This document shows positions 8,582 through 36,852 of a stretch of 40,415 bases of DNA, piece after piece. Both the position numbers and the translations under genes were made by a program. A model generated the notes under the pieces. The model ran no database searches, was not told the origin of the DNA, and saw nothing but the letters and a program-made list of their open reading frames with translations. Every line of letters starts with the position of its first letter. The first letter of the stretch is position 1. The stretch is from an uncultured Prevotellaceae bacterium (lineage in GTDB: Bacteria > Bacteroidota > Bacteroidia > Bacteroidales > Muribaculaceae), in assembly GCA_900320055.1 (NCBI GenBank), contig ONQS01000022.1:1-40415 (forward strand), read 5' to 3'.

Positions 8582-8656
8582 GGGCAGTTAGCGCAGTTGG
8601 TTCAGAGCATCTGCCTTACAAGCAGAGGGTCGGGGGTTCGAATCCCTCACTGCCCA
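8582..8656 (+). tRNA. tRNA-Val (anticodon TAC)
   Basis: A 75-nt cloverleaf including the discriminator A: acceptor GGGCAGT/ACTGCCC (7 bp), D arm with GTTGG, anticodon stem TCTGC/GCAGA with loop CTTACAA (anticodon TAC, reading GUA/GUG valine codons), five-base variable loop, and T arm with TTCGAAT. The genome encodes ACC rather than CCA at the 3' end, so CCA must be added after transcription. It stands alone between its own promoter and terminator. Confidence 0.96.
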
Positions 8657-27548: not shown

Positions 27549-29066
27549 TTACTGGGCCTTCTTGTGTGAGAAGTAGATACCGTTGGACAGTTGAGGAGTG
27601 CCCTTGAAGGTAGTCTTCACACCAATCACGGTGAGTTCGTCACCAACGCCGATACCCAGGGTCTCGAGCAGGTTCTTGCGGTTGTCGCCGGTAGCACCCC
27701 AACCGGGATAGCAACCATAGACGTAAACCTGGTTGGTAGCATCCTCCAGATAGAGGTTGCCATAGGTGGGATTGGCGATCTCGGTGATGTTACCGGTCAG
27801 CATGTAGTAAACATCAGCGTTGTCCTCCTTGTCGAGGAACTCATCGATGGTCACGGGGGTCACAGGCTTCACGCCCTCCAAAACGGCACCCGTCATCTGG
27901 GCCGTGCCCTTGTACTCACCACGCTTGCCCACGAGGGTAACGATGTCACCGACCTTCAGGCCAGCAGCCTCAAAGTCGCCCTTAGCGCCGATACCGTAAA
28001 CGTAGGTCTCACCCGACCAGTCACGGATATAGACATTGCCATAGGCGGGGTTAGCCACGCTGGTGATCACGCCAGTGATGCGATACTGGGTGTCGCCGGT
28101 TTCTGCAGCGAGGAAGTCGGCTACCGAGCACTCAACGATGGAGCCCTTCTGGTAGATGGTTGCCTCGGCGGTATATTCCTGACCCTTGTCGTCGGTGGTC
28201 TTGAAGACTACCACGGCACTGCGGTCGCCACCGAGGTTGGCACCAGCGCGGAAGGTTACCACGGGCTCTGCGCCACCGGCAACGGAAACGATACCCAGCC
28301 AGTCCTTAGCAGCCTCGGGCACCTCTACCGATACACCATTGTTGGTCTTGCAAGTCAGGTTGACGGCTACCGTACCACCCTCAACGGGGATGGTAGCGTC
28401 TTCGGGATCATAACCCTCGACCTTAACCAGCGACTTCTGGATCTTGACAACGGTAACGTTAACCAACTCGACGGTTCCGTTATACACGCTCTTGGGACCC
28501 TCGACGGTAACGATGTCACCCACCTCGAGACCAAGGCTCAGGAAGTTCTTCTCATTGCCCTTGGCATCCAGGGTACCATAGATGTAAACCTCACCGGTCT
28601 CATCGCGCAGATACCAGTTACCATAAGTGGTGTTGACAATCGAAGCCACGACACCAGTCACGCGGTAGTTCTTGCTCTCGGGACCGGCAAGCACCTCGGC
28701 GCAGGTAGCCTCATTAACAACAGCGAGACCTTGGATCACGTTGATGGTCTGGGTCTTGCCAGCGCAAGCAATGTGCAGAACGGTGTTACGGCCATCCGAA
28801 GCAGCAGGAGCGGTGAAGGTCACCTTGCTCTCGCCAGCGCCGCCATTCATCGGGCTGATGGTCAGCCACTCGGGAATTTCCTCAGCATCAAACGACCAAG
28901 CCTCCTTGGCATTGACGGTAATGGTGTTGGAACCACCGTTCACATCGATGCTAACATAGGAAGACGAAACCTGGATCTCATCGAGCAACGTCATTGAATC
29001 GTCGTCCGAGCAACTTGTCAGCAGGGCGACCAATGCAAAAAACGAAAGAAAATATTTAAGTTTCAT
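27549..29066 (-). CDS. BACON and OB-fold repeat lipoprotein
   Basis: A 505-residue surface or periplasmic lipoprotein. The ATG at 29066 (MKLKYFLSFFALVALLTSC) is chosen because it gives a lipoprotein signal with lipobox LLTSC; the longer reading frame runs into the receptor gene upstream. Domains: BACON module at about 35-115 (WLTISPMNGGAGESKVTF), an OB-like module with YRVTGVV...YGNWYLRD...YIYG, a second BACON-like module, then two more OB-like modules (YRITGVI...YGNVYIRD...YVYG and YMLTGNI...YGNLYLED...YVYG). The three OB units are clearly repeats. It starts 25 bp after the TonB receptor stop, so it is the receptor's likely extracellular partner, by analogy to SusD-like arrangements. Ligand unknown. 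Confidence 0.85.
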   Translation of the reverse strand: MKLKYFLSFFALVALLTSCSDDDSMTLLDEIQVSSSYVSIDVNGGSNTITVNAKEAWSFDAEEIPEWLTISPMNGGAGESKVTFTAPAASDGRNTVLHIACAGKTQTINVIQGLAVVNEATCAEVLAGPESKNYRVTGVVASIVNTTYGNWYLRDETGEVYIYGTLDAKGNEKNFLSLGLEVGDIVTVEGPKSVYNGTVELVNVTVVKIQKSLVKVEGYDPEDATIPVEGGTVAVNLTCKTNNGVSVEVPEAAKDWLGIVSVAGGAEPVVTFRAGANLGGDRSAVVVFKTTDDKGQEYTAEATIYQKGSIVECSVADFLAAETGDTQYRITGVITSVANPAYGNVYIRDWSGETYVYGIGAKGDFEAAGLKVGDIVTLVGKRGEYKGTAQMTGAVLEGVKPVTPVTIDEFLDKEDNADVYYMLTGNITEIANPTYGNLYLEDATNQVYVYGCYPGWGATGDNRKNLLETLGIGVGDELTVIGVKTTFKGTPQLSNGIYFSHKKAQ

Positions 29067-29091
29067 AATATATGTATTCTGTGACTTTGAA

Positions 29092-32000
29092 TTAGTTGAA
29101 GATGTACTTGATACCGATAGAAGCATTCCAGCACTGACCGATCGACTTGTTGGGAACGAAGGTCTTGGTGTCGCCATTGATCGAACTCGGAGTCGAGAAG
29201 GTGGGATAACCCTGAGCGTCTACGCCCTCATACTTGAGGATGCGGGGATCGCTGCCGATCTCGGGATTGAGATACTTGCTCACACCCCAACTCGAGTTGA
29301 AGAGGTTCATCAGGTTCTTGATGTCGAAACTCAACTGCAGGGTGTGCTTTGCGCCACACACGTTCAGCGAGAAGTCGTGCTTGTAACTCAGGTCAATGCG
29401 GTGAACCCAGGGGCTGTACAGGCTATAGGCCTCGGCATACTCGCCCTGGTGCTTGCTCAGGTAACTGTTGTTGTGCACATAGTCCATGAAGCGGTTCTTG
29501 CTGTCTTCGTTCACAAAGCGGAACTCACGGCTCTCGACCTGTGCATCGGTGGGGATGTACAGAGCGTCGTAGTTGTAACCGTCGCCGTTCATGTCGTTGG
29601 ACATCATGTAGGAGTAGTTGTAACCGCCGCGCCAGGTCTCATAGATCAGGCCATAGTGGTTACCGCTGCGGTCGTGACCAGTTGCCGAGAAGACGAAACG
29701 GTCAGGAGTAACATACTGCGAGTTGTGCAACTTGATGTTGTTGGGACCCTCGACGGTGGGAACATAGGTGAAGGCACTCTCGGCAGCGCTACCGGGCATA
29801 CCGGTGACTTCCTTATTAACAGTGTGGGTGTAAGCAGCCATCAGGCTCAACCACTCAAACGGGCGGGCATTGATGGTCACGTTGCCGATCCAACCATAAC
29901 CGCGGCTGGTGTTCTCCAGAACGAAGGCCTTGGTACCGCGACGGAAACCAGCGGGGAAGATGGGACGGTTGTCAACGCCGTTGAAGCGGGCATAACCACC
30001 CACGCCAGGCATGCTCCAGTCACTGATGCTGGCAGCATTGATGTTCTTGTTGAAGATACCCTCAACAGTTACGGTGAAGGGGAACGATACGGGGATGTTA
30101 ACGTCGGCAGCGATCGAGGTCTTCCATACCATCGGCATCTTGAACTTGGGATCTACTGCAGAGATCGATGAGGGAACGGTACCCATGTCAGAGGTTACGT
30201 TCTCGGGATAACCCATAGCGATGAGTTTGCTGCGCAGGGCGTCGATGGTAGCATGGCCCTCGGCGTCGGTCACCAGACCGCCAGCAAACTGGCTCATGTC
30301 GGTGTTCTTCTCGTTGAGTTGTGCCTGATACTGTACCAGACCACCATTGGTGGGCATGTTGGTGAAGAATACCAGGGGCAGACGGCCTGAGAACAGACCA
30401 GAACCACCACGCAGTTTCAGCAACTGGTTGCCCAGAACGTCCCAACTGAAACCTACACGGGGTTGAACGATCAGGTTGCTGCTCGGCCACTTACCGGTGT
30501 CGATGTGGCGAACATTACCGTTCTTGTCATAGTAGTCAAGTGCCAGGATAGCGTTGTTGGTCAGCAGGTCACCATTGTTGAAGAACAGACCGTCGAGACG
30601 CAGACCGTAGGTCAACTTGAAGTTGCGGGTCACGTTCCACTCGTCCTGAGCATAGATACCAGCCTTGTTGAACTGCACGCGGGCAGCAGGCTTGGTCTCG
30701 GTTCCGTAACCGTAGGTCAAGCAAACGACCTCGGGAGCGGCACCGTTGATAAAGTCGTCAACGCTGTTGTAGCGGTAGTAACCGGTACCATTGCGCATAT
30801 ACTGGTTGTCGGCCATCTGATGCTCAAACGACAGACCACCCATGAACTTGTGGTTACCATAGTACCAAGTGAGGTCGTCACGCAGGTTCCAGATGGTGTT
30901 GTGAACGGCGTTGTTCCAGGTAAACAACTCATAACCCAGAGCCATGTAGTTGTCACGGTTGCCATCGGCATCAGTCATGGTGATGTCGATGAAGGGGAAC
31001 TCGCTCGAGTTGGTGGTGCGGATATCGTCCAGTTTGGAGAAGGTTGCCAGGAACTCGTTCGACAGGTTGTCAGTCAAGCGGCTGTTCAAGTTAGCCGAGA
31101 AGGAGTGTACCAGGTTGTCCATGCCATACATCGAGTTGGCGAAGGAGAACGAGTACATCGACACGCGGTAGTTGGGCAGGCGGGTACCACCGTCCATCGA
31201 GGTGCCGTTGGGGTTGCTCCAGTAGCGGTTCTTGGTGTAGTTGTAACGCAGCGACAAGTGGTGGTCATGGTTGATGTTCCAGTCCAAGCGGGCCAGCAAC
31301 TTGTAGTTGTTCTCGTCGGCGGGGAAGTTGGTATAGGAACCCGTGTCATAACCGTACTTGTTCATCACGTGATTCTTCACGCGCTCCAGGTCGGCGACCG
31401 TGGTGCGAGAGATAAACTGATCAGCGTTGCCCACACCATCCTGAGAAGCGCGCCAGCGGTTCACGATGGTGGGTTGCTTGGTCATTTCACCATTGACAAA
31501 GAAGAAGACCTTGTTCTTCCAGATCGGGCCACCCAGGGTGAAGCCGTAGGTAGTCACCTGATCCTTCTCGCGGGCTGCTGCCAACTGCACGCGGTCAACA
31601 GCGTCGCCACGCATGTTCTCGTTGCGGTGGAAGATGTAGGCACTGCCGCGGAAGGTGTTGGTACCACTCTTGGTGATGGCGTTAACACCACCGCCGATGA
31701 AGTTGGTCTGACGAACGTCGTAGGGCGAAATCACAACCTGCATCTCCTCGATAGCCTCGATGCTGATGGGGTTACCACCACCAGGCAGGTTCTCGCTCAG
31801 ACCGAAGTTGTTGTTGAAGTTTGCACCATCGACCGTGAAGTTTGCCAGACGGCCATCGGTACCAGCAAAACTCATGCCGTTGCCACCGAAGGGCGACAGA
31901 CGGGTAACGTCGGTCAGGCTGCGGGTAACGGTAGGCAGGTTGCTGATCTGTGTGCTGTTAATGTTGGTGGCAGCACCAGTCTTCTCGGCACGGAACTTGG

Positions 32001-32376
32001 TAGCCTGCGAGGTAACGACAACCTCACCGAGGGTGTTGGCGTCAACGCTCATGTCAACATCCAGGTCATAGGTCTCGGCCAGTTGCAGAGTAACATCTTG
32101 AATCTGACGGGTTTGATAACCGATGTAACTCACTGTCACGGTGTAGGGGCCACCAGGACGCATACCCTTGATCGAGTAGCGGCCGTCCATGTTGGTGACG
32201 GCATTGTACTGGGTGCCAGAGGGCGTGTGCAAGGCGGTAACCGTAGCGCCGATCATCGCCTCCTGATTTTCATCGGTCACAACACCCGACAGGGCCGAGG
32301 TTGTCACCTGTGCACTCGATGCCAATGCTACAAAGAACATTGCCACTAATGCCAAAAGTTTAACTGTTCTCAACAT
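29092..32376 (-). CDS. TonB-dependent outer-membrane receptor, Oar-like
   Basis: A 1094-residue outer-membrane transporter. Signal peptide at about 1-22 (ending ALASSAQ), an N-terminal carboxypeptidase-regulatory-like beta domain at about 28-112 (GVVTDENQEAMIGATV...VSYIGYQTR), a plug domain at about 130-250 (GEVVVTSQATKFRAEKTGAA..., GGGVNAITKSGTN) and a large beta-barrel to the C-terminus (GIKYIFN). The plug lacks the long SusC signature and resembles Oar-type receptors, whose substrates include peptides or are unknown. It leads a two-gene unit with the BACON/OB lipoprotein. A 235-nt structured leader with an intrinsic terminator precedes it, suggesting control by transcription attenuation. 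Confidence 0.93.
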   Translation of the reverse strand: MLRTVKLLALVAMFFVALASSAQVTTSALSGVVTDENQEAMIGATVTALHTPSGTQYNAVTNMDGRYSIKGMRPGGPYTVTVSYIGYQTRQIQDVTLQLAETYDLDVDMSVDANTLGEVVVTSQATKFRAEKTGAATNINSTQISNLPTVTRSLTDVTRLSPFGGNGMSFAGTDGRLANFTVDGANFNNNFGLSENLPGGGNPISIEAIEEMQVVISPYDVRQTNFIGGGVNAITKSGTNTFRGSAYIFHRNENMRGDAVDRVQLAAAREKDQVTTYGFTLGGPIWKNKVFFFVNGEMTKQPTIVNRWRASQDGVGNADQFISRTTVADLERVKNHVMNKYGYDTGSYTNFPADENNYKLLARLDWNINHDHHLSLRYNYTKNRYWSNPNGTSMDGGTRLPNYRVSMYSFSFANSMYGMDNLVHSFSANLNSRLTDNLSNEFLATFSKLDDIRTTNSSEFPFIDITMTDADGNRDNYMALGYELFTWNNAVHNTIWNLRDDLTWYYGNHKFMGGLSFEHQMADNQYMRNGTGYYRYNSVDDFINGAAPEVVCLTYGYGTETKPAARVQFNKAGIYAQDEWNVTRNFKLTYGLRLDGLFFNNGDLLTNNAILALDYYDKNGNVRHIDTGKWPSSNLIVQPRVGFSWDVLGNQLLKLRGGSGLFSGRLPLVFFTNMPTNGGLVQYQAQLNEKNTDMSQFAGGLVTDAEGHATIDALRSKLIAMGYPENVTSDMGTVPSSISAVDPKFKMPMVWKTSIAADVNIPVSFPFTVTVEGIFNKNINAASISDWSMPGVGGYARFNGVDNRPIFPAGFRRGTKAFVLENTSRGYGWIGNVTINARPFEWLSLMAAYTHTVNKEVTGMPGSAAESAFTYVPTVEGPNNIKLHNSQYVTPDRFVFSATGHDRSGNHYGLIYETWRGGYNYSYMMSNDMNGDGYNYDALYIPTDAQVESREFRFVNEDSKNRFMDYVHNNSYLSKHQGEYAEAYSLYSPWVHRIDLSYKHDFSLNVCGAKHTLQLSFDIKNLMNLFNSSWGVSKYLNPEIGSDPRILKYEGVDAQGYPTFSTPSSINGDTKTFVPNKSIGQCWNASIGIKYIFN

Positions 32377-32437
32377 ACAATTAAAATAGATTTGATTGTT
32401 AATAAATGATTAATTATAAAAATTATGTATTTTCTGT

Positions 32438-32488
32438 AAAAAAATTCAGCGCTACATTAGTGGTCAGTATCCCAACTAACATAGCGCT
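32438..32488 (-). terminator. Intrinsic terminator inside the TonB receptor leader
   Basis: Stem of 14 pairs (32475-32488 with 32448-32461, outer seven AGCGCTA/TAGCGCT perfect, two G:U), then GAA and seven U (32444-32438). It lies 62 bp before the receptor ATG, so it would cut off the receptor mRNA unless prevented. Confidence 0.8.
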
Positions 32489-32612
32489 CTTGTCGCTAGA
32501 ATCCCTATCTTGCAGCGGGTTATGGTGCTGCATAGCCGCACCTGAGCCGCAAGTTATACTAAAGGGTATGCTGTATGAATGAATCAACATTATTGTATAA
32601 CTGTCAAATCCA
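32489..32612 (-). promoter_or_regulatory. Candidate riboswitch/attenuator upstream of the TonB receptor
   Basis: Between the promoter and the terminator the minus-strand RNA has: a perfect 8-bp stem AGTTATAC/GTATAACT (32602-32595/32559-32552) closing a 35-nt loop; a second arm CTTGCGGC/GCTGCAAG (32553-32546/32516-32509) with inner GGTGC/GCACC; a possible CCCT:AGGG pairing between the first loop and the segment after the second arm (32566-32563/32506-32503), pseudoknot-like; and TAGCG (32498-32494) able to pair with CGCTA (32486-32482) in the terminator's 5' half, an antiterminator. I cannot match it to a known riboswitch. It could also be an independent small RNA. Confidence 0.55.
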
Positions 32613-32616
32613 AGCG

Positions 32617-32647
32617 CAAAATTACTCTTTTTTCTGCATCCGACAAT
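32617..32647 (-). promoter_or_regulatory. Promoter of the TonB receptor leader
   Basis: Minus-strand ATTG (32647-32644, one mismatch), 19-bp spacer, TAATTTTG (32624-32617). Transcript start about 32611. Confidence 0.65.
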
Positions 32648-32710
32648 CATGATTTGGTAAGATTTTTTCAACAATTTTATGCTTTAACACATTTAACCAA
32701 AAAAATCAAA

Positions 32711-32746
32711 ATCCCGGCCGGCATCACTTCTTGATGCGGTCGGGAT
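32711..32746 (-). terminator. ruvC terminator overlapping the end of the gene
   Basis: Hairpin ATCCCG-ACC-GCATCA / TGATGC-CGG-CGGGAT followed by TTTTGATTTTTTT on the minus strand. The last codons and stop of ruvC form the 5' half of the stem. Confidence 0.8.
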
Positions 32747-33437: not shown

Positions 33438-36311
33438 TCACCAGTGGCCACTCAGCAGATAATCGATCAGGCTGGTCACATCGTCGATGGTGACGGCCCC
33501 ACTCTGGTCGCAGTCGGCACCCGCCAAGTCGATAGCGCTGCCGTTGCCGCTCAGCAGGTAATCGATCAGGGCTGTCACGTCGTCGATGGTGACACGGCCA
33601 TCGCGGTCCACATCGCCGCGCAGACTTGCAGTCCACTTCTCCACCACCAGGATGCCCTGGCTCAGATAGAGCGTCAGGTTATACTTGCCTGTTGCGATCT
33701 TGAAGGCGTTCTCGCCGGCAACGACATTCAGCGGCGTGCCCAGGCGGGGCTCGCTGATGAGGTAGTCTTTAGAGGTGGCGCCCAGGCGCTTGCCTGCAAT
33801 CTCACTCCACGCCGTGGCCGATGAGGCCAGCGCTGTCGAGAAACTGAAGTAACTGTAGCCGCCATAGGGGTCCACCAGGTCGATGGTCGCGGTATATTTC
33901 TCACCGTTGTCGGTCGTCATCTCGTGGCCGTTGTTGGGAGCCCAACCAGTCGCATTGATGTTGCCCAGCACATAGACGTGCTCATAACCGCTGCTGCCCA
34001 TGCCGCCGTAGCGCTCGGTCACGTCGAGATAGGTATCGGCTGCGGCATAGTTGTAGCCCGTCAGTTCGCTGTTAGGATATATAATGAACGCATCGCGCGC
34101 GAGCGTAAGCGTAGACGTCTGGTTCTCAAAGCCTCCCTGACCGTTGTTGAAGATGACACTCACCTGGTCGGCATCCACATGCAGGCAGTACCACTCGATG
34201 TCATCCACCACGACCTTGTCCAGGCTGCTGACGGCCTTGCCGGGCCAGTTGTCGCCAGTCACGCTACCGCTTGCAGTCCAGGCCCAGATATGGGCATTAG
34301 CCATGCTCGACTTGACATACACGTTAATGCCCGTGGTGGGCGCTGGAGTGATCGTGTAGATGTAGTGCTCGACGTTCTCGACCTGGTCGCCGTTGAGCAC
34401 GCCCACCTTGAGTGTCGTGTTCTCGTCAAAGGTCATCGTCGTCGAGGCAGTCAAGGTGGCGCTAGTGACCGTAGGCTCGCTGCCGTCGGTGGTATAGACC
34501 AGAGTCGTGCCTGCCGCACTCGGCGACACCGTCAGGCTCACGCTGCCCACATAGTTGCCGGCGGCCTTGCTCACCACGGGATAGCCCAGTATGCGGCCGT
34601 CCTTGCCCACATGCCTCCAGTCGATGCCGTTGCTGATGTACAGGTTGTAGCCGTCACCGCCCTGCACCAGGGTGTAACCGCTGGGAGTGCCATTGCCTGT
34701 GGCACCACCCACCTGCAGATACAGATTGCCTCGTGTGCCCTGGGTCTCGATAATGTAACCGCCACCACTCTCACGCTGCGTGAGCAGGGCGCTCTGGTTG
34801 TGGACACCGGCCGCGCGGCGGGCCTTGATGCAGTTATTGATCTCGCTGGCATACACCAGGTAGTGTTTGTAGAAGATACACGGCGTTCCAGGCATGGCCA
34901 GGATAAAGGCGTTGGCGGGCATCACGTTGGTCTTCAGGCAGTCGTAGTTGCCGCTCTGGCCCGTATCGTGGTTGTCGACAAAGGTCACCGAGTAGCGCTG
35001 GTAATCGGGGTCGGCTGCCAGGCCCTTGTCGTTGAGGGCGCTCCACGTGCCGCCGCCAAAGGCCGACTGCATGGGATACTTCAGCGCGAAGTCAAACACG
35101 GCGGTTTGGATGCGGTCGTCCTGCTTGGTGCTATTGAGCCACCAGCGCAGCGTCTCGGCATTGCCGTCCCAATACTCGCCCACCGAGAATGCGGGTTCGC
35201 AAGCCTGGTTATACAGGCCCGTGTAATAGCCCGAATAGCCCTTGCACATGTCGTATCGGAAACCGTCATAGCCCAGTTCCTGCATCAGGTAGCGCTGATA
35301 GGTCTTGACATTTTTCTGCACATTGGCGCTGGTGTGGTCCAGATCGCGGCTGCCGTCAAAGTTTTCTCCCTCGTCGGCCGCTCCGGTAGCGGCATAGCCT
35401 GCTGCCACACACTCATCGGTGCTGCAGATGTCGGCCATCGACCACGTCATGCTGTAGGTCTCGCCCGTGACCGGGCCAGTTACCGTCTCACTGGCCAGGT
35501 CCACCCAGCCGTTCTTGCCGCTCTTGTGATTGATGACCAGGTCCATGATCACGCTGGTGTTGTGACGATGCAGGGTCGAGATCATGTCACGCAACTGAGC
35601 CTCGGTGCCAAACACGCTGTTGTGCTTCAGCCAGTACACGGGCATATAGCCCATGGTCTGAGCCGTGCCGCCCGCATCGATGCTGCCCGAGTTGGGCACC
35701 CACACCACGTCGAAGTACTGTCCCAACTGCTGCGCCTTGTCGGTCAGCGAGGTCCAGCGTGTGGCTTGGTAACTGTCCCAATAGAAGCCTTGCAGCATCA
35801 CGCCACCATACATAGCCGGCCAGCCGCGGCCAGCAACGGTGCCGCCTCCGCTCTCGCGTGTGATAGTGGTGGTTCGGCCTGCCATGTCAACCGTCAGCGA
35901 GTAGGTGCCAGCAGGGATGCGGAACGCCACGTCCACATCCACACCCAGGGCGTTCATCGCGATGGGCTGCCCCAGCATGGTCGGCGTCACCCAGAAGTCT
36001 CCCTGGCTCACAGGGGTCATCCGGTAGGCCTTGATGCCATCCCAATCGCTGCTGCTCGAAGCCAAGCGCGTGGTAAAGGAGAAGTAACTCACCGCGGCAT
36101 CCTCCTCGCTGTGCTCGCCGTTAAAGGTCACCGTGGCCGTAAACAAGTTACCGTCGGTCGTCGTCATCGGCACCCCCACGCTCGGGTTCCAACTGTTGCC
36201 TTGAACCTCGCCCAGGATATAGAGCGCGTCGGTGGCGGCACTGGCAGGGTGAGCCAGTCCACAGGCGACAATCATCAGTAATAGAGTAAAAAGCGTCCGT
36301 AGTTTGGTCAT
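33438..36311 (-). CDS. Secreted multidomain alpha-amylase (GH13) with dockerin-like tail
   Basis: An exported 957-residue starch-degrading enzyme. Signal peptide at about 1-26. Residues 28-152 form a beta module (YILGEVQGNSWNPSVGVPMT) repeated at about 775-895 (YVLGNINATGWAPNNGHEMT), so the catalytic part is flanked by two copies, probably glycan-binding. The GH13 barrel spans about 165-560 with region I DLVINH (257-262), region II GFRYDMCKG (nucleophile D354), region III SVGEYWDG (acid E379) and region IV FVDNHDTG (D446). Then a chitobiase-type domain (TTDGSEPTVTSATL), a CBM26-like starch-binding module (VYVKSSMANAHIWAW...NWPGKAV) and two dockerin-like repeats at about 899-957 ending SGHW. 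All catalytic residues are intact. Not in a Sus locus here. Confidence 0.93.
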   Translation of the reverse strand: MTKLRTLFTLLLMIVACGLAHPASAATDALYILGEVQGNSWNPSVGVPMTTTDGNLFTATVTFNGEHSEEDAAVSYFSFTTRLASSSSDWDGIKAYRMTPVSQGDFWVTPTMLGQPIAMNALGVDVDVAFRIPAGTYSLTVDMAGRTTTITRESGGGTVAGRGWPAMYGGVMLQGFYWDSYQATRWTSLTDKAQQLGQYFDVVWVPNSGSIDAGGTAQTMGYMPVYWLKHNSVFGTEAQLRDMISTLHRHNTSVIMDLVINHKSGKNGWVDLASETVTGPVTGETYSMTWSMADICSTDECVAAGYAATGAADEGENFDGSRDLDHTSANVQKNVKTYQRYLMQELGYDGFRYDMCKGYSGYYTGLYNQACEPAFSVGEYWDGNAETLRWWLNSTKQDDRIQTAVFDFALKYPMQSAFGGGTWSALNDKGLAADPDYQRYSVTFVDNHDTGQSGNYDCLKTNVMPANAFILAMPGTPCIFYKHYLVYASEINNCIKARRAAGVHNQSALLTQRESGGGYIIETQGTRGNLYLQVGGATGNGTPSGYTLVQGGDGYNLYISNGIDWRHVGKDGRILGYPVVSKAAGNYVGSVSLTVSPSAAGTTLVYTTDGSEPTVTSATLTASTTMTFDENTTLKVGVLNGDQVENVEHYIYTITPAPTTGINVYVKSSMANAHIWAWTASGSVTGDNWPGKAVSSLDKVVVDDIEWYCLHVDADQVSVIFNNGQGGFENQTSTLTLARDAFIIYPNSELTGYNYAAADTYLDVTERYGGMGSSGYEHVYVLGNINATGWAPNNGHEMTTDNGEKYTATIDLVDPYGGYSYFSFSTALASSATAWSEIAGKRLGATSKDYLISEPRLGTPLNVVAGENAFKIATGKYNLTLYLSQGILVVEKWTASLRGDVDRDGRVTIDDVTALIDYLLSGNGSAIDLAGADCDQSGAVTIDDVTSLIDYLLSGHW

Positions 36312-36567: not shown

Positions 36568-36599
36568 GTTGCATATCCGCAAAAAATGGTCTACCTTTG
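36568..36599 (+). promoter_or_regulatory. Promoter of the cobalamin riboswitch transcript
   Basis: GTTG at 36568-36571, 20-bp spacer, TACCTTTG at 36592-36599. Transcription would start just before the aptamer. Between 36409 and 36567 nothing else is recognised. Confidence 0.7.
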
Positions 36600-36607
36600 C
36601 AGCCGAA

Positions 36608-36793
36608 AATTTGGTGCTGCGAGCGTCACGCCGTGATGTGTCGCAGATTAAAAGGGAATCAGGTGAGAATCCTGAGCAGACCCGCTGCTGTATATCCCGA
36701 GCCAAGTTGTCACGCATCACATTGCGTCACTGTCCACGCCTGTGGATGGGAAGGCCGCGTGACAATGGGATGAGCCAGAAGACCTGCCAAGTT
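36608..36793 (+). promoter_or_regulatory. Cobalamin (AdoCbl-type) riboswitch
   Basis: Classic conserved blocks in order: AAAAGGGAATCAGGTGAGAA and CCTGAGCAGACCCGCTGCTG (36650-36693), CACTGT (36727-36732), GGGAAGGCCGCG (36748-36759), and the B12 box GAGCCAGAAGACCTGCC (36772-36788). The ends pair AATTTGG/CCAAGTT (36608-36614/36787-36793). It senses cobalamin and controls the corrinoid adenosyltransferase gene downstream. The loop-receptor sequence for the kissing interaction was not mapped in detail. Confidence 0.93.
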
Positions 36794-36852
36794 GGACATA
36801 CTGTTGCTTTGACTCTCGTGGAATAGGGTCGGACAATCAACCATCACAGGCC

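Follow-up and report, generated by a model that had tools for sequence, protein, structure and literature searches.

A candidate ribosome-coupled attenuator in the leader of an outer-membrane receptor operon of an uncultured Bacteroidota bacterium

The receptor operon, its leader and related leaders

The window (the whole 40415-nt stretch of DNA analysed) carries on its minus strand, at 32376..29092, a gene for a 1094-residue receptor with CarboxypepD_reg and an Oar-like beta-barrel according to Pfam (PF25183, E 6.5e-49; PF13620, E 9.5e-23), and overlapping it a second operon gene (29177..27549) whose product matched BACON and, weakly, an OB-fold (PF13004, E 5.2e-15; PF01336, E 2.1e-5, below the cut-off). 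All leader features described below lie on the same strand. Upstream of the receptor gene the sequence contains a TTG as the -33 element (32646..32644) and, 19 nt later, the -7 box TAATTTTG (32624..32617), which reads as TAnnTTTG, so that a promoter postulated earlier without coordinates could be located; the combination is of the Bacteroidota type, the Bacteroides consensus being TTTG at -33 and TAnnTTTG at -7 (PMC7366714). Transcription would begin near 32610-32614.

The leader had been described in the original prediction as a folded region, a description that overlooked an ORF of 55 codons running from ATG to TAA (32590..32423) with the translation MLIHSYSIPFSITCGSGAAMQHHNPLQDRDSSDKSAMLVGILTTNVALNFFTENT. 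Codons 8 (32569..32567) and 12 (32557..32555) of this ORF are the rare isoleucine codon ATA. They are followed, still within the ORF, by hairpin 1 (32553..32509), which appeared in both the MFE and the consensus fold. Its arms, 32553..32546 and 32516..32509, form the predicted 8-bp closing stem and enclose a smaller hairpin; this inner arm is absent from the consensus fold. Also within the ORF, as judged from sequence and folding, lies the terminator stem-loop (32488..32448), separated by GAA from a run of seven U (32444..32438) that ends 61 bp ahead of the receptor ATG (32376), in agreement with the intrinsic terminator predicted 62 bp before that codon.

For comparison, 61 genomes together with 80 named contigs yielded 110 upstream regions, 96 of them distinct. 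The nearest named relatives were MAGs; many came from the rumen, and they carry the labels Muribaculaceae, Prevotellaceae, Porphyromonadaceae or Bacteroidales, one being Candidatus Sodaliphilus. The 96 distinct regions were assigned by peptide patterns and by a start codon 26-45 nt after TAnnTTTG, giving 33 leaders like that of the window (family I), nine of a second type from a sister clade (family II) and 52 others; two regions (L075 and L084) then joined family II to make 11. In the relatives TAnnTTTG was found at the corresponding position ahead of the leader. A scan that admitted only spacings of 26-45 nt placed it 28-42 nt before the start codon in all 33 leaders of family I, and at 36-37 nt in nine of family II. 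The distance from start codon to hairpin was 92-114 nt in almost every leader for which the correct start was used. One receptor upstream region (L038) had a strong hairpin already 24 nt into its leader ORF, followed by ACTCTTTTAT, and is possibly a variant of the same layout.

Family II leaders encode different peptides (M..L.FFIFD..PGSQ.YTAGD.IS-like), with a hairpin at approximately codon 14, a terminator (CACACCGCTATTAG...) and, in the rows read (nine rows; L020 was anchored wrongly), an ORF stop inside the hairpin. A leader of the same layout also precedes a neighbouring gene in six named contigs, with weakly similar sequence in five. Two of the neighbouring proteins were tested: one matched DUF5689 (E 5.9e-60) and weakly dockerin, the other dockerin (E 8.6e-8) and weakly DUF5689. 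In some relatives this DUF5689/dockerin gene with its similar leader is located just upstream of the receptor locus. The DUF5689-type leaders, aligned with L046 left out, hold only a weak core of the peptide, and Cys14 is absent in three of the five aligned. In a further leader (L042), which precedes a receptor matching at 36% identity, the spacing is kept but the peptide is again dissimilar.

Among 101 genomes of the genus, leaders of the family I or DUF5689 type were detected at E <= 1e-7 in 39; another six gave no more than weak matches of this kind (E 0.002-0.03). Family II was found in 17 at E <= 1e-9 and weakly in two more. The strong family I-type and family II genome sets did not overlap, and seven genomes had two strong family I-type copies. 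When 297 genomes of the family, from 30 genera, were searched with the family I profile, the leader was found in 18, all belonging to the own genus and always upstream of the receptor, besides one weak match (E 0.008) with a stop. In five of the 39 strong family I-type genomes (L016, L251, L256, L266 and genome G368) the frame of the leader stays open over 1173-1256 codons and thus appears to continue, uninterrupted by a stop, into that of the receptor; the signal peptide of the receptor would then be internal, and a fused product would arise if the leader ribosome ran on.

A specificity scan that covered both strands of 40 20-kb stretches, taken from four genomes with the known receptor locus excluded from the G033 and G009 stretches, gave eight loose candidates, against two in a reversed-sequence control. 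The whole layout was present only in the already-known receptor leader of G018, so the layout looks specific to this gene group. Of 30 distinct upstream regions of receptors in the own genome (one more was too short), only the window leader had the same layout. Terminator-like hairpins were found in four others, and TAnnTTTG at least 90 nt upstream in five others, two of which have a short ORF without an overlapping terminator.

Coding content and codon usage of the leader

All 33 distinct orthologous leaders of family I keep the ORF, and their start codon swaps between ATG, GTG and TTG at a single position after TAnnTTTG. Over the 29 conserved codons of these leaders pN/pS was 0.42 in the leader frame, compared with 1.08 and 1.18 in the shifted forward frames, which have stops in 27/33 and 33/33 leaders, and 1.07 and 1.37 in two of the reverse frames. 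The third one, in which the wobble sites are shared, had a similar value of 0.43, yet contains stops in 29/33. Column shuffles matched the in-frame value in two of 200 cases (12-row subset). When 29 of the 33 peptides were aligned, several of them shortened at the C-terminus, M1, C14, A18, P25 and L26 were invariant. In the leaders the wobble base varied at many codons, including Pro9, Phe10, Gly16, Ala18, Gln21 and Phe22, with the first and second positions held, a pattern that argues for selection on the peptide. Conservation of the peptide declines beyond approximately codon 32, where a frame shift or an early stop occurs in some leaders, with the hairpin kept. A leader profile, which included the window peptide itself, found this leader in the own genome at E 2.7e-25. 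Searches of Pfam and NCBIfam with three leader peptides returned nothing but one chance-level Pfam match (E 0.17). By these comparisons the leader looks like a conserved coding ORF, and it is presumably translated.

In 18 ORFs of the window ATA makes up 19/533 isoleucine codons (3.6%) and AGG 4.4% of arginine codons, whereas codons 8 and 12 are each isoleucine in 31 of the 33 family I leaders and ATA in all 31 of these. Over codons 2-33 of family I, ATA accounted for 77/87 isoleucine and AGG for 46/53 arginine codons; the corresponding ATA fractions were 22/30 in family II, 9/14 in six DUF5689-type leaders and 6/13 in six others, against 72/207 among off-frame ATN triplets. Among 11 later-added leaders ATA was present at codon 7-9 in ten, the exception (L185) having ATT at the conserved isoleucine of codon 9; it was missing from codon 7-9 in three of the six DUF5689-type leaders.

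Codon changes were then placed on a tree built from the receptor gene. Both conserved isoleucine codons showed zero synonymous change and two arginine positions zero change of the wobble base, compared with six to 13 synonymous changes at Pro9, Phe10, Gly16, Ala18, Gln21, Phe22 and Tyr23, and with 2, 2 and 6 in the receptor's own three invariant isoleucine columns. This result suggests selection for slow codons, and the conserved ATA codons perhaps tune ribosome speed. Further leader codons, however, are similarly quiet (0-3 changes), namely Thr13, Cys14, Ser15, Glu17, Ser20, Asn24, Pro25, Gln27 and a late AGC. Some of these codons fall in hairpin 1, and an RNA-level reason for their conservation is possible.

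Terminator, upstream fold and promoter position

The fold of the whole leader was better than that of 200/200 shuffles (z -3.34), whereas the part ahead of the terminator gave z -0.92 and was equalled by 30/200 shuffles; the folding-energy signal is therefore mostly that of the terminator. In the alignment of the 33 family I leaders 94.5% of the cells of the terminator stem were paired, and both-sided changes were seen in 8/15 pairs, a number reached in 7/500 shuffles, with the covariation score reached in 0/500. The family II alignment gave six pairs with both-sided changes, compared with 1.4 in shuffles, and a run of at least four T after the stem. The longest T run in family I begins 1-6 nt past the GCGC/GCGT end of the stem and comprises 5-7 T in 18 leaders, four T in 14 and three T in one (L018). 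The runs of 3-4 T in 15/33 relatives are weaker than that of a textbook terminator; the element presumably acts as a terminator in the cell.

The ORF enters the terminator stem in 33/33 family I leaders. Its stop codon lies at least 17 nt beyond the stem in 26 of them (eight of these have no stop as far as the receptor start, at which the sequence had been truncated), 11-14 nt beyond it in four and within it in three. In a larger set the ORF enters the stem in 51/51 leaders, including all 11 later-added ones; to be included a leader had to have a hairpin at 85-125 nt of the ORF, which was lacking in L197, L251, L266 and L275. The 13 rows first counted as new in this set came down to 11, since in L244 and L250 a more upstream ATG had been taken as the start of DUF5689-type leaders already known.

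Hairpin 1 behaved differently from the terminator. Its long stem was paired in 96.3% of the family I cells over the nine pairs tested, but on five measures of covariation the observed value was reached by 47, 201, 37, 199 and 29 of 500 shuffles. As this is not clearly above shuffles, hairpin 1 could be a by-product of coding, and we rejected it as an aptamer for family I; it is possibly a pause or slow-down hairpin. The family II hairpin at approximately the same codon showed both-sided changes in 3/8 pairs.

A TAGCG segment had been proposed to pair with the 5' arm of the terminator in mutually exclusive antitermination. Although a five-base complement is indeed present just upstream in the window, such complements were no longer in the 51 leaders than in shuffles. 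We also removed the 3' arm and compared the pairing of the 5' arm with the real and with shuffled upstream RNA. The mean was 0.314 for the real and 0.446 for the shuffled sequences, with the real value exceeding the shuffled one in 7/51 leaders. A conserved antiterminator was therefore rejected. Such low upstream pairing is what would be expected if the ribosome, and not RNA, masks the terminator. With Rfam 15 at gathering scores nothing was detected in the leader region (32350..32720), and the single match at E <= 10 was a 21-base fragment (E 2.1) outside the leader.

The last 110 nt ahead of the receptor ATG contain TAnnTTTG in 0/33 family I and 0/11 family II regions, compared with 37/52 of the other upstream regions and 32/33 of a hand-picked set without a leader, mostly from Prevotella. 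A second promoter of this kind at the receptor was rejected for the family I and family II leaders. The hand-picked set was taken from L085-L122 with L090 and L094 left out for a misplaced start, L098 for having a leader, and L087 and L097 because their TAnnTTTG is found only at -124 and -340. The contrast is not absolute, as 15 of the 52 others are also without a near TAnnTTTG: six have leader-like ORFs (L036, L037, L038, L042, L066 and L069), one sequence is cut short (L073) and eight simply have no TAnnTTTG. In the window, the interval 32438-32376, in which a second promoter could account for receptor expression, has no TAnnTTTG; a sigma-70-like match (11/12, to an E. coli pattern) at 32440..32413 remains a caveat. 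The lack of a near TAnnTTTG indicates that, where the leader is present, transcripts of the receptor gene most likely extend through the hairpin.

Possible mechanism, rival explanations and known systems

The original prediction had left the choice between a riboswitch and an attenuator. The attenuator half fits the conservation of promoter, hairpin and gene order and the leader-bearing orthologues without TAnnTTTG near the receptor, whereas the riboswitch half, together with its mutually exclusive antitermination, is not supported. We think that the leader is probably a ribosome-coupled transcription attenuator of the pyrBI kind, and the comparison supports this reading through an apparently coding ORF, a covarying stem, the overlap of the two, and the lack of both a conserved antiterminator and a second TAnnTTTG promoter. 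Transcription from TAATTTTG would soon expose the start codon of the 55-codon ORF, and approximately 100 nt later the polymerase would make the strong terminator that lies within it. A ribosome following closely would occupy the 5' arm, no hairpin would form, and transcription would read through into the receptor and BACON genes; with a ribosome that lags, stalls or never started, the hairpin would form and transcription would end. The delay of the ribosome may be set by hairpin 1 together with the conserved rare codons, which are ATA and, in relatives, also AGG. That the ribosome relieves the terminator is our inference. Possible signals are the status of translation or tRNA, polymerase pausing, or a nascent-peptide stall at IPF.ITC...NPLQ. 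Our confidence was lowered by the short T runs and by the less clean promoter contrast. In addition, ribosomes had little effect in one reporter study (PMC4824070) on terminators placed in the first 100 bp of a gene, except where coupling was restored by a pause; this attenuator would therefore need a pause, at hairpin 1 or elsewhere.

A special case of such coupling, which we regard as possible although on balance improbable, is a regulatory nascent peptide, the conserved stretch of which would stall the ribosome on a signal and so set read-through. It would account for the purifying selection on residues 8-29 or so, with their many free wobble positions, and for a Cys14 that is invariant in the 29 aligned rows, and it has a precedent in the CruR uORF, which precedes a TonB transporter gene and senses copper via CXXC (PMC9426467). 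However, the second clade keeps the layout with a different peptide, the DUF5689-type leaders hold only the weak core and mostly lack Cys14, and by eye we recognised no known arrest motif. The change of peptide under a constant layout also speaks against a small protein gene that has its own terminator, with the receptor expressed by leaky read-through. This explanation seems unlikely to us despite the conservation of the peptide: the three peptides tried belong to no Pfam or NCBIfam family beyond the chance-level match, and because the stop codon lies at least 17 nt past the stem in 26/33 leaders, the terminated RNA would be without one.

It is also conceivable that the stem is not a terminator and acts after transcription, in mRNA processing or stability, given that in many relatives the T runs are short and offset from the stem. 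We consider this quite improbable, as at least four T follow the stem in 32/33 family I leaders and in the family II alignment, and the window has its seven T directly after GAA. Least probable, and to our minds very improbable, is a metabolite riboswitch with a terminator/antiterminator switch. A structured leader with a terminator and a whole-leader z of -3.34 might be read in its favour, but the fold ahead of the terminator is at chance level, hairpin 1 has no clear excess of covariation, the leader looks coding and has no Rfam match, the 5' arm is under-paired with no conserved antiterminator, and the second clade differs in leader sequence, its hairpin 1 having a nine-base loop. Returning to the ribosome-coupled attenuator, a broader version, which we put forward only as a speculative and rather doubtful proposal, is that attenuators across the genus have a largely replaceable peptide and a conserved geometry and codon speed. 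They would act as a timer of ribosome versus polymerase that gates the receptor and the DUF5689 surface protein, possibly in DNA or nucleotide uptake. The geometry of this timer would be a start codon approximately 35 nt past the -7 box, in most leaders the rare ATA somewhere in codons 7-9, then at codon 13-14 a slow-down hairpin, and the terminator approximately 100 nt into the ORF. We give this proposal less weight because invariance of the wobble base is also seen at further codons of the leader.

In E. coli pyrBI a polymerase pause is governed by UTP. PMC4824070 and PMC5021804 describe for its leader, pyrL (~135 bp), a terminator inside a short leader ORF, as found here, and a ribosome whose advance over that terminator prevents termination; the operon responds to UTP (PMC4824070). 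The window system differs from pyrBI in its conserved peptide, its conserved rare codons, its outer-membrane receptor target and its phylum. The trp, his and leu attenuators likewise combine a leader ORF, an upstream hairpin and a terminator. Attenuators of this amino-acid type use an antiterminator, whereas the 51 leaders analysed here have no conserved one, and by eye no run of end-product amino-acid codons was seen in the family I and family II peptides. In them the leader gene ends more than 20 bp ahead of the terminator (PMC4824070), unlike in the window, where the terminator is inside the ORF. CruR of the Bordetella bfrG TonB transporter operon is similar in that a translated uORF controls the operon by premature termination, but it is Rho-dependent and has CXXC and RAPP motifs (PMC9426467); CXXC, C-terminal RAPP and a Pfam match (DUF2946) are all absent from the window peptide. 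In the Bacteroidota, leader-peptide attenuation has been suggested for sORF-containing 5' UTRs of B. theta and F. psychrophilum (PMC7366714, PMC9723704). The F. psychrophilum cases concern amino-acid biosynthesis operons (PMC9723704), and not an outer-membrane receptor as in the window, and for B. theta there is a general remark with BT_4401 as example (PMC7366714); the terminator overlapped by the ORF is a feature of the window. In the open-access literature searched we found no description of such a leader before this receptor.

To our knowledge, the tie between ribosome and polymerase has been little studied in Bacteroidota. The present reading, if true, would extend pyrBI-like coupling control to their surface receptors. 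The leader would then be a natural reporter, in which a swap of two codons or of the leader start should change receptor expression predictably, and the two clades, with different peptides and the same geometry, would allow sensing of the peptide to be separated from sensing of speed.

A role of the window operon in DNA uptake is only a lead. Natural transformation of Riemerella requires two adjacent genes, one encoding an outer-membrane protein with CarboxypepD_reg and the other a DUF5689 protein (PMC8459023). The window receptor has PF13620 and its operon partner has no DUF5689 match; the single DUF5689 gene found in the own genome sits on another contig, C61, near another CarboxypepD_reg outer-membrane protein (G000:C61:10109-13694), a pair like the Riemerella transformation genes, and before this outer-membrane protein gene no leader ORF was found. 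The genome has ComEC and DprA. Elsewhere in the window we noted a tRNA (8582..8656), a Bacteroidales small SRP RNA (RF04183, 24621..24728, plus strand), a cobalamin riboswitch (Rfam RF00174, 94.5 bits, 36595..36805, plus strand) and, on the minus strand at 33438..36311, an alpha-amylase with CBM26 and a type I dockerin; dockerin matches recur beside the receptor locus in relatives.
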